Source of the DNA: Opitutaceae bacterium
GTDB lineage: Bacteria > Verrucomicrobiota > Verrucomicrobiia > Opitutales > Opitutaceae
Assembly (NCBI GenBank): GCA_947474995.1
Contig: CANJNJ010000001.1
Location: 1-64,000, forward strand
Length of the DNA stretch: 64,000 nucleotides
Direction: 5' to 3'
Under the pieces are notes generated by a model. That model searched no databases. It was not told where the DNA came from and worked only from the letters and a program-made list of their open reading frames with translations. The position numbers and the translations under genes are program-made. Positions within the stretch are counted from its first letter, which is position 1. Each line of letters begins with the position of its first letter. Positions 314 through 39,273 of the stretch are shown piece by piece.

Positions 314-1282
314 CTACTTCGCGATCTCGCCGGCGTTGATCCCGCGGCCGAGTTCGAAACCGGCGCCCACGGCGCCGACGACGGCGTGCGCACGGTCGAG
401 CCCAAGGTCCCGCCGAAACCGGTAGACCGTCTCGATCCCCGTGCAGTGCGCCCCAATAAAGTTGTCCACGCCGAATCCGCGCAGCTTCTCGGTCGTCCAC
501 GCCAGCGTCTCTTCACTCGCGTTGAACAGGTGAATCCCGCCAATGAGGGCGTTAATCCGGGCCGGCCGAATGAACGTGCGCGCGTGGTCGGTGATGTTGA
601 TCACGCCCGCGTGCCCGCAGCCCGTCAGCACGACGAGGCCCTGCGCGGTGTCGAACACGAGCGACATGTCGTCCGGGACATTATCCTCCACGACTCCCGC
701 CGACGTCGTCATCCGACCACGACCGCTCCAGTTGCGTTCAGGATATTTGCGCGGGACGGGACCGGTCAGCCAGACCCCCGGATAGAGTTGCACCGGCCGG
801 TCGTGCACCACGAAGGTGCCCCCCGTCTGCTCGTAGTCCGGCCTCACCCGCAGCATCGCGTTGTTTTCCACCGGCGGAGCGGCCGTGGCTCGCGAATAGA
901 AAAAACCCTCCGCGACATGGGTACGAGCCAAGGCCCCGGGAGCCGCACCGCGGACGGAGTCGCGCAAGGTCATGAAGCCGCCGACGTGGTCCCAATGCCA
1001 GTGACTCAGGATGACCTCCGGCACGGTCGTGAGATCGAGTTTAAGCGTGCGGGCGTTTTTCAAGACGACATCAGTGTGTGCCCCCGTGTCGAAAAGGATG
1101 CGGTGCCCATCGACTTCCACGAGCGCCGCAAAACCCCATTCACCAAGTTCGTCGCCGTCGGCCAGCATCGTGGAGAGGATCGTGATCTTTAGTTCCTGCA
1201 CCTTTCCGTGCAGTTCGGCGGCGGGGATCGGACATGGGACCAAAAGGACCAGTAGGACGAATAGCAGGGCTCTCGGGATCAT
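314..1282 (-). CDS. MBL-fold metallo-hydrolase (exported)
   Basis: HWHWDHVGG metal-binding motif, hydrophobic N-terminal leader. Confidence 0.85.
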   Translation of the reverse strand: MIPRALLFVLLVLLVPCPIPAAELHGKVQELKITILSTMLADGDELGEWGFAALVEVDGHRILFDTGAHTDVVLKNARTLKLDLTTVPEVILSHWHWDHVGGFMTLRDSVRGAAPGALARTHVAEGFFYSRATAAPPVENNAMLRVRPDYEQTGGTFVVHDRPVQLYPGVWLTGPVPRKYPERNWSGRGRMTTSAGVVEDNVPDDMSLVFDTAQGLVVLTGCGHAGVINITDHARTFIRPARINALIGGIHLFNASEETLAWTTEKLRGFGVDNFIGAHCTGIETVYRFRRDLGLDRAHAVVGAVGAGFELGRGINAGEIAK

Positions 1283-38694: not shown

Positions 38695-38723
38695 ATAGGT
38701 CCCATCGGAAGAATTGGACCTAT
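38695..38723. repeat. 29-nt inverted repeat element (8-13-8) overlapping a start codon
   Basis: ATAGGTCC-CATCGGAAGAATT-GGACCTAT; ATG at 38722. Confidence 0.8.
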
Positions 38724-39273
38724 GACCAAGCTCATACCTCCCCACGGCGGTTACGCCGGCCTAAAAACTTACCAGTCCGCGGAAATTGTCTACGACGCCA
38801 CCGTCGTCTTTTGCGATCGATGGATCGATTGCCGCTCCCGCACCCACAATCAAATGGTGCAGGCGGCCCGGAGCGGAAAACAGCACATCGCCGACGGCAG
38901 CATGGCCTCGGACACCTCGAAGAAGCTTGAGCTCAAGCTCGTGGGTGCGGCACGCGCGAACCTTGAGGAGCTGATGCTCGATTACGGCGACTTTCTGCGG
39001 CAGCGGGGGCTCACGACTTGGCACAAGGGAGATCCGCGAGCGGCGATCGTGCGGAGTCTGGCTTATGCTCCCGATCGGTCCTACGAGACTTATCGGACGT
39101 ATATTGAAAACCAGTCGGCCGAAATCGCGGCCAATACCCTGCTCTGCCTCAACCACCAGGCGAACTACCTACTCGACCAGTTGCTGCGCCAGCTGGAGCA
39201 ACAATTTCTCGCCGAAGGGGGATGCACGGAGCCGCTCCATCGCGTGGGCCCAGACGATCGCGCCGCCCCCTGA
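38722..39273 (+). CDS. Four-helix-bundle suffix domain / IVS-like protein
   Basis: MTKLIPPHGGYAGLKTYQSAEIVYDATVVFCDRWID...RTHNQMVQAARSGKQHIADGS...ANTLLCLNHQANYLLDQLLRQLE. Confidence 0.85.
   Translation: MTKLIPPHGGYAGLKTYQSAEIVYDATVVFCDRWIDCRSRTHNQMVQAARSGKQHIADGSMASDTSKKLELKLVGAARANLEELMLDYGDFLRQRGLTTWHKGDPRAAIVRSLAYAPDRSYETYRTYIENQSAEIAANTLLCLNHQANYLLDQLLRQLEQQFLAEGGCTEPLHRVGPDDRAAP
39074..39102. repeat. Internal copy of the 29-nt 8-13-8 element, within CDS
   Basis: ATCGGTCC-TACGAGACTTATC-GGACGTAT; 19/29 identical to 38695-38723 by hand alignment. Confidence 0.65.

Follow-up and report, generated by a model that had tools for sequence, protein, structure and literature searches.

Miniature repeats of 9-nt modules and a four-helix-bundle protein family as probable partners in bacterial genomes

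Hairpin-capable elements built of 9-nt modules occupy the start codon and the coding sequence of a four-helix-bundle protein gene in the window, the 64-kb stretch of an Opitutaceae genome that was analysed, and arrays of the same period are found at homologues of this gene and dispersed through host genomes. The best reading of these data, which we regard as probable, is that they are REP- or IVS-like miniature elements of which the four-helix-bundle protein is the cognate partner. This suggests that, in bacteria, a protein family is teamed with mobile mini-repeats in a way not recognised before.

The gene encodes 183 amino acids with a TIGR04258 suffix domain (38722..39273, + strand; ORF from the ATG at 38722, stop codon included). 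Its leader element (38695..38723, + strand) reads ATAGGTCC-CATCGGAAGAATT-GGACCTAT and is composed of the units ATAGGTCCC/ATCGGAAGA/ATTGGACCT followed by AT, these final two bases being the AT of the start codon. The sequence bears out the perfect 8-bp inverted repeat, with the ATG at 38722, that the first-pass annotation had described, and as RNA the element is predicted to form a hairpin with an 8-bp stem (minimum free energy −18 kcal/mol). The linker element within the coding sequence (39074..39102, + strand; ATCGGTCCTACGAGACTTATCGGACGTAT; units ATCGGTCCT/ACGAGACTT/ATCGGACGT plus AT) lies between helices 3 and 4 of the protein, a relative position that matches the linker arrays of homologues. 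Its location, its 19/29 identity to the leader element and the encoded peptide RSYETYRTY were as claimed, but its arms are less perfect than had been stated, with complementarity at 6 of 8 positions. No tail array was seen at the window gene.

A bare 8-13-8 inverted repeat was rejected as significant by itself: the window contains 3 perfect ones, and 129 perfect 8-bp inverted repeats with spacers of 3–40 nt. Unlike the bare inverted repeat, the three 9-nt modules (ATNGGNCCN-like) are not a product of chance. The module pattern ATNGGNCCN ATNGGNNNN ATNGGNCCN AT, which was derived from the leader element itself, is matched with 0 mismatches by that element and with 3 by the copy in the coding sequence, and the best matches in 20 shuffles of the window had 4–6; equally good matches in shuffled sequence, which the annotation had said would count against it, were thus not seen. 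The independent test of the 9-nt module reading is the count in the 5.2-Mb genome to which the window belongs, where about 5 further sites were found at no more than 2 mismatches (reversed control, 0). A possible further dispersed copy, ATGGGACCAAAAGGACCAGTAGGACGAAT (1234..1262, + strand), has 3 mismatches to the module pattern and is a weak candidate identified by this match alone. The window hairpins fold slightly better than shuffles (z −1.4 for the leader element and −1.6 for the other, weakly significant), and with its degenerate units, such hairpins and the lack of a visible tail array the locus looks old and eroded.

The window protein scored 58.1 bits against the TIGR04258 HMM (cut-off 40) over residues 133–175, which places it in this family. 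The suffix domain is encoded at 39118..39246 (+ strand; TIGR04258 match positions 1–43) and supplies the fourth helix of the bundle. The AlphaFold model (pLDDT 90.5) has four long helices (residues 15–34, 40–62, 67–94 and 133–165), and the linker that joins helix 3 to helix 4 contains two further, short helices. The top-probability Foldseek matches were the S23-family protein 2rld (0.97) and the Avd protein of a diversity-generating retroelement (DGR), 8ub7_B (0.96, TM 0.72 by target), with the weak E-values that are usual for helical bundles. PF05635 (23S rRNA IVP) matched 58 of 60 homologues at E ≤ 0.1 (best 6e-8) but not the window protein, which also had no match in the rest of Pfam or in PADLOC and scored below threshold against TIGR02436 (12.6 of 24 bits). 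The resemblance to rRNA intervening-sequence (IVP/S23) and Avd proteins that had been proposed is therefore supported by the TIGR04258 match, the model, Foldseek and the homologues. To our knowledge the IVP fold has no catalytic activity, so a TIGR04258 protein probably does not act as a transposase on its own. Reading of translations named the neighbours of the window gene as an MFS-type transporter ORF and an SGNH-hydrolase-like ORF. Rfam gave no match in 7 loci, including that of the window, and literature searches for TIGR04258 or 'four helix bundle suffix' found no papers.

TIGR04258 was detected in 57 of 200 genomes of the family and 208 of 388 genomes of the phylum (taken as Verrucomicrobiota), often in several copies. 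The homologue sample comprised 177 loci that were read and 167 distinct genes having both domains. With arrays defined as 9-nt periodic stretches with at least 19/27 matches, lag-9 arrays were present in 54/164 leaders, 35/167 linkers and 45/164 tails, compared with 0–4 at other lags, 0–1 in dinucleotide shuffles and 0/166 in the bundle coding region. Absence of the element from homologues, the other result that would have spoken against the annotation, was looked at as well: 95 of the 167 genes have at least one 9-nt array. Unit types vary from gene to gene (ATAGGNCCT, GATCNGNCN, GTCNGACNN, ATGGGAGTN, GTAGGACNN and others), whereas leader, linker and tail units of the same gene resemble each other (similarity 0.63–0.69 vs 0.51–0.55 when permuted, p 2e-4 to 4e-4; this test, like the Fisher tests below, counts related genes and genomes as independent). 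This is the transfer of a copied or expanding 9-nt repeat between leader and coding sequence that had been suggested, in the form of concerted evolution, and the leader, linker and tail arrays, the likeness of units within a gene and the genome-wide dispersal all support it.

Several loci of the sample have particular arrangements. At L062 and L177, 9-nt arrays precede the suffix domain and an upstream bundle domain was not found, possibly as the result of a deletion between leader and linker arrays. At L008 (about 1404–1500 on the gene strand) a stop codon directly after the linker array divides bundle and suffix into two ORFs, which may reflect decay or phase variation. Perfect 9-nt arrays follow the gene (GATAGGGGT) or surround it (TTAATGGAC / CCACCCAGT) at L099, L102, L106, L109 and L111 (one genus, taken as Akkermansia) and at L107 and L110; their copy numbers differ among species, which makes them candidate VNTRs.

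Dispersed arrays were counted by pattern searches covering three unit types, and the incompleteness of metagenome-assembled genomes bears on absences. Of the 200 family genomes, 23 contain runs of three ATAGGNCCT units in tandem, with up to 44 matches (reversed control, 0), and TIGR04258 is carried by 18 of these 23 vs 39 of the 177 others (p 1.8e-7). GATCNGNCN arrays number 77 in G006, 59 in G083, 44 in G030 and 40 in G069, the genes of which have GATC units, and most genomes of the ATAGG type lack them; in G030, genes of both types are accompanied by elements of both types. Searches for GTCNGAC arrays succeeded in 15/15 genomes with a GTCNGAC-type gene vs 3/21 others; for some of these 15 it is the arrays of the gene itself that were matched, but G208, G282, G338, G480, G496 and G501 have higher counts than those arrays can account for. 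Gene and genome also agreed in type for ATAGG (10/20 vs 4/33, p 0.004) and GATC (7/13 vs 7/40, p 0.025), some counts including the gene's own arrays. The matching of unit type between gene and genome is thus significant but incomplete. Arrays without a detectable TIGR04258 gene were seen in G004, G003, G094 and G123, and a full-length profile search of array-bearing, gene-less genomes found none; either the repeats persist or function without the gene, or another factor acts.

The dispersed elements are typically 29 or 38–40 nt long (3–4 units), and 31 of 38 were not deep inside ORFs, compared with 118 of 740 random positions (16%). The free sixth base (N6) of the first unit is complementary to that of the last in 24 of 38 elements (expected 12.1, p 1.5e-4) and no such complementarity was found between first and second units, which indicates that pairing of the arms is maintained, as expected of a hairpin. 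In G113 one element sits between a stop and a start codon, and the orthologous sites of G175 and G071 are empty; this presence/absence difference, shown at one site, is a lineage-specific gain. Two 40-nt elements in G030 are 95% identical and two 38-nt elements in G004 are identical at 36/38 positions, with unrelated flanks in both cases, and judged from such sequence comparisons the elements have likely been copied.

Some 9-nt arrays were set apart from these elements. The 455 GATC matches of G103 (assembly 65% complete) were rejected as analogous: the arrays found in the stretches read belong to one long ORF (L322) and are apparently a different, coding phenomenon. Reading about 130 kb of G103 and G123 for more arrays led nowhere. 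On the Anabaena plasmid pANA02, a 9-nt array (GGGAGTTGG; L391, 6748–6823) lies inside an annotated ATP-binding-protein CDS.

The sister family TIGR02436 has arrays of another period. Among TIGR02436 loci of the phylum, the 30 best had no lag-9 arrays, had lag-7 arrays in 15 leaders and 17 tails, and had lag 8 in a few; the leader period differs between the two families with p 2.7e-12, relatedness not being controlled. In a set of 42 TIGR02436 loci that takes in those of cyanobacteria, arrays lie on both sides of 24 (mutually inverted in 19, direct in 4), and here too units are gene-specific (0.707 vs 0.487 permuted, p 2e-4). The loci L349–L378 are classic S23-like four-helix-bundle genes flanked by 7-nt (sometimes 8-nt) tandem arrays, and one of them, L374, comes from the window's own genome, which therefore has the 7-nt kind as well. 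On cyanobacterial plasmids (L379–L390), heptamer arrays lie beside 12 of 12 S23-type genes (leader in 11, tail in 12), several of which are placed between genes that are operon partners, for example nrdB-nrdA and cas6-cas4. No other copies of the gene's own heptamer were found elsewhere on pANA02 and pNe_5, and one Nostoc plasmid has other heptamers, the unit of its S23 gene not recurring elsewhere on it. Cyanobacterial STRRs are tandem 7-bp units, hairpin-forming, intergenic and of unknown function (PMC2670836), and in Coxiella burnetii variable heptameric repeats precede S23p in the IVS (PMC4990558). Both look related to the 7-nt arrays, and the heptamer arrays at the plasmid genes are a possible source of STRRs; no papers connecting the three were found in the open-access literature.

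When the 9-nt elements are compared with known systems, they share several traits with REPs/REPINs and their RAYTs (PMC3733652, PMC3116915). They are short (29–40 nt), imperfect, dispersed and mostly extragenic palindromes, in line with the definition of REPs (20–40 nt), they adjoin the ends of a particular protein gene, and families with different cognate genes coexist. They differ in being made of 9-nt modules, in having arrays also inside a coding sequence and in their partner, since the flanked gene encodes a four-helix bundle and not the Y1 (HUH) transposase of a RAYT/REPtron. With 23S rRNA IVSs that contain S23p/IVP ORFs, for example that of C. burnetii (PMC4990558), they share a gene bounded by inverted repeats and a protein that, judged by the PF05635 matches of its homologues, appears to be of the same superfamily; in contrast, the window gene lies outside a 23S rRNA gene, the location that defines an IVS, the units are of 9 nt and not 7 nt, and linker arrays and dispersed solo elements are present. 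The heptamers of STRRs are distinguished by a unit of 7 nt, as in the TIGR02436 sister family. DGR Avd proteins share the fold, as the Foldseek match to Avd in 8ub7_B indicates, but an adjacent reverse transcriptase with TR/VR repeats, the mark of a DGR, was not noticed in a reading of the ORFs at 34–44 kb of the window.

One alternative is that the elements are ordinary REPs moved by a RAYT (Y1 tyrosine transposase) and that the four-helix gene is a bystander with REP insertions. Opitutus terrae has REPs, which may insert in genes (PMC3733652), and Y1_Tnp genes were found in 34 of 40 genomes tested, yet they were equally common in array-poor genomes, and in G103 no array lay close to 9 of the 10 Y1_Tnp loci that were read. 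Moreover, Y1_Tnp had no match in G208 (99% complete) or in G282, G338 and G440 (84–92% complete), despite 18–70 GTCNGAC matches per strand; RAYTs are therefore no general explanation for repeat-rich genomes. The GTAG/CGTC tag of REP superfamilies is missing from the consensus of ATAGGNCCT, GATCNGNCN or GTCNGACNN units, and bystander insertion predicts neither the sharing of a unit by three sites of a gene nor a subfamily-specific period. We therefore consider this alternative improbable. A little less so, though still unlikely, is that the arrays are neutral minisatellites, expanded by slippage and unequal recombination at tolerant places, with no role for the protein. A 9-nt unit would preserve the reading frame in the linker, and the arrays of L099, L102 and L110 are perfect and VNTR-like. 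However, slippage is local, and the unit is common to leader, linker and tail with copies dispersed; frame-keeping explains neither the 9-nt period of non-coding leaders and tails nor the 7-nt period of the sister family, and the covariation of the arms also argues against neutrality.

The two remaining alternatives assign the hairpins a function of their own, and we regard each as very unlikely. If the leader hairpin, which ends at the ATG, were solely a local autoregulatory operator, the copy in the coding sequence would be a coincidence arising from the peptide YE.YR.Y, and residues like YE.YR do occur in homologues without the repeat. Against this stand the dispersed copies elsewhere in the window's own genome and the codon usage of ATAGG-type linkers, in which rare AGG codons (21/105 vs 13/362) and TAT codons are enriched, a test that is partly circular owing to the choice of genes with repeat-like linkers. 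Selection might instead maintain the elements as ordinary terminators of transcription or as hairpins for mRNA stability, which would agree with their mostly intergenic location and hairpin folding, but only 3 of 42 have a neighbouring T or A tract, and 9-nt modularity, lineage-specific gain and dispersal are not traits of terminators. Secondary use by the host is possible.

In the preferred reading, that of miniature elements with a cognate four-helix-bundle protein, hairpin-capable elements of three to four 9-nt modules are spread mostly between genes, and the TIGR04258 gene with the same modules in its leader, linker and sometimes tail would form a REPtron-like or IVS-like locus. An oligomer of the protein may recognise the unit as hairpin RNA or single-stranded DNA, and its footprint would set the unit length. 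The leader element is a plausible binding site of the gene's own protein, as the annotation had proposed, and binding at leader and linker hairpins could autoregulate the mRNA from the start codon. Binding at dispersed copies may mark them or help them to spread through host enzymes, so that the dispersed elements would be targets of the protein or non-autonomous derivatives.

More tentatively, and with somewhat less than even confidence, IVP/S23-fold proteins may act in trans as the partners of an entire class of tandem repeats in bacteria, in which each subfamily fixes the unit length (9 nt in TIGR04258, and 7 or 8 nt in TIGR02436), arrays of its own unit bound the gene, and STRRs, the 9-nt elements and 23S rRNA IVSs are mobile derivatives. 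If true, the arrangement would parallel the REP-RAYT system but work without a transposase or through RNA. IVSs with S23p, the heptamers of cyanobacterial STRRs and the way in which REP-like repeats arise without a transposase have been separate open questions, and the data suggest one answer to all three: arrays matched in unit type and length to a four-helix-bundle family. The function of S23/IVP proteins thereby becomes directly testable, as binding of each protein to its own unit, and the loci would offer a natural series of protein-repeat pairs for studies of specificity.
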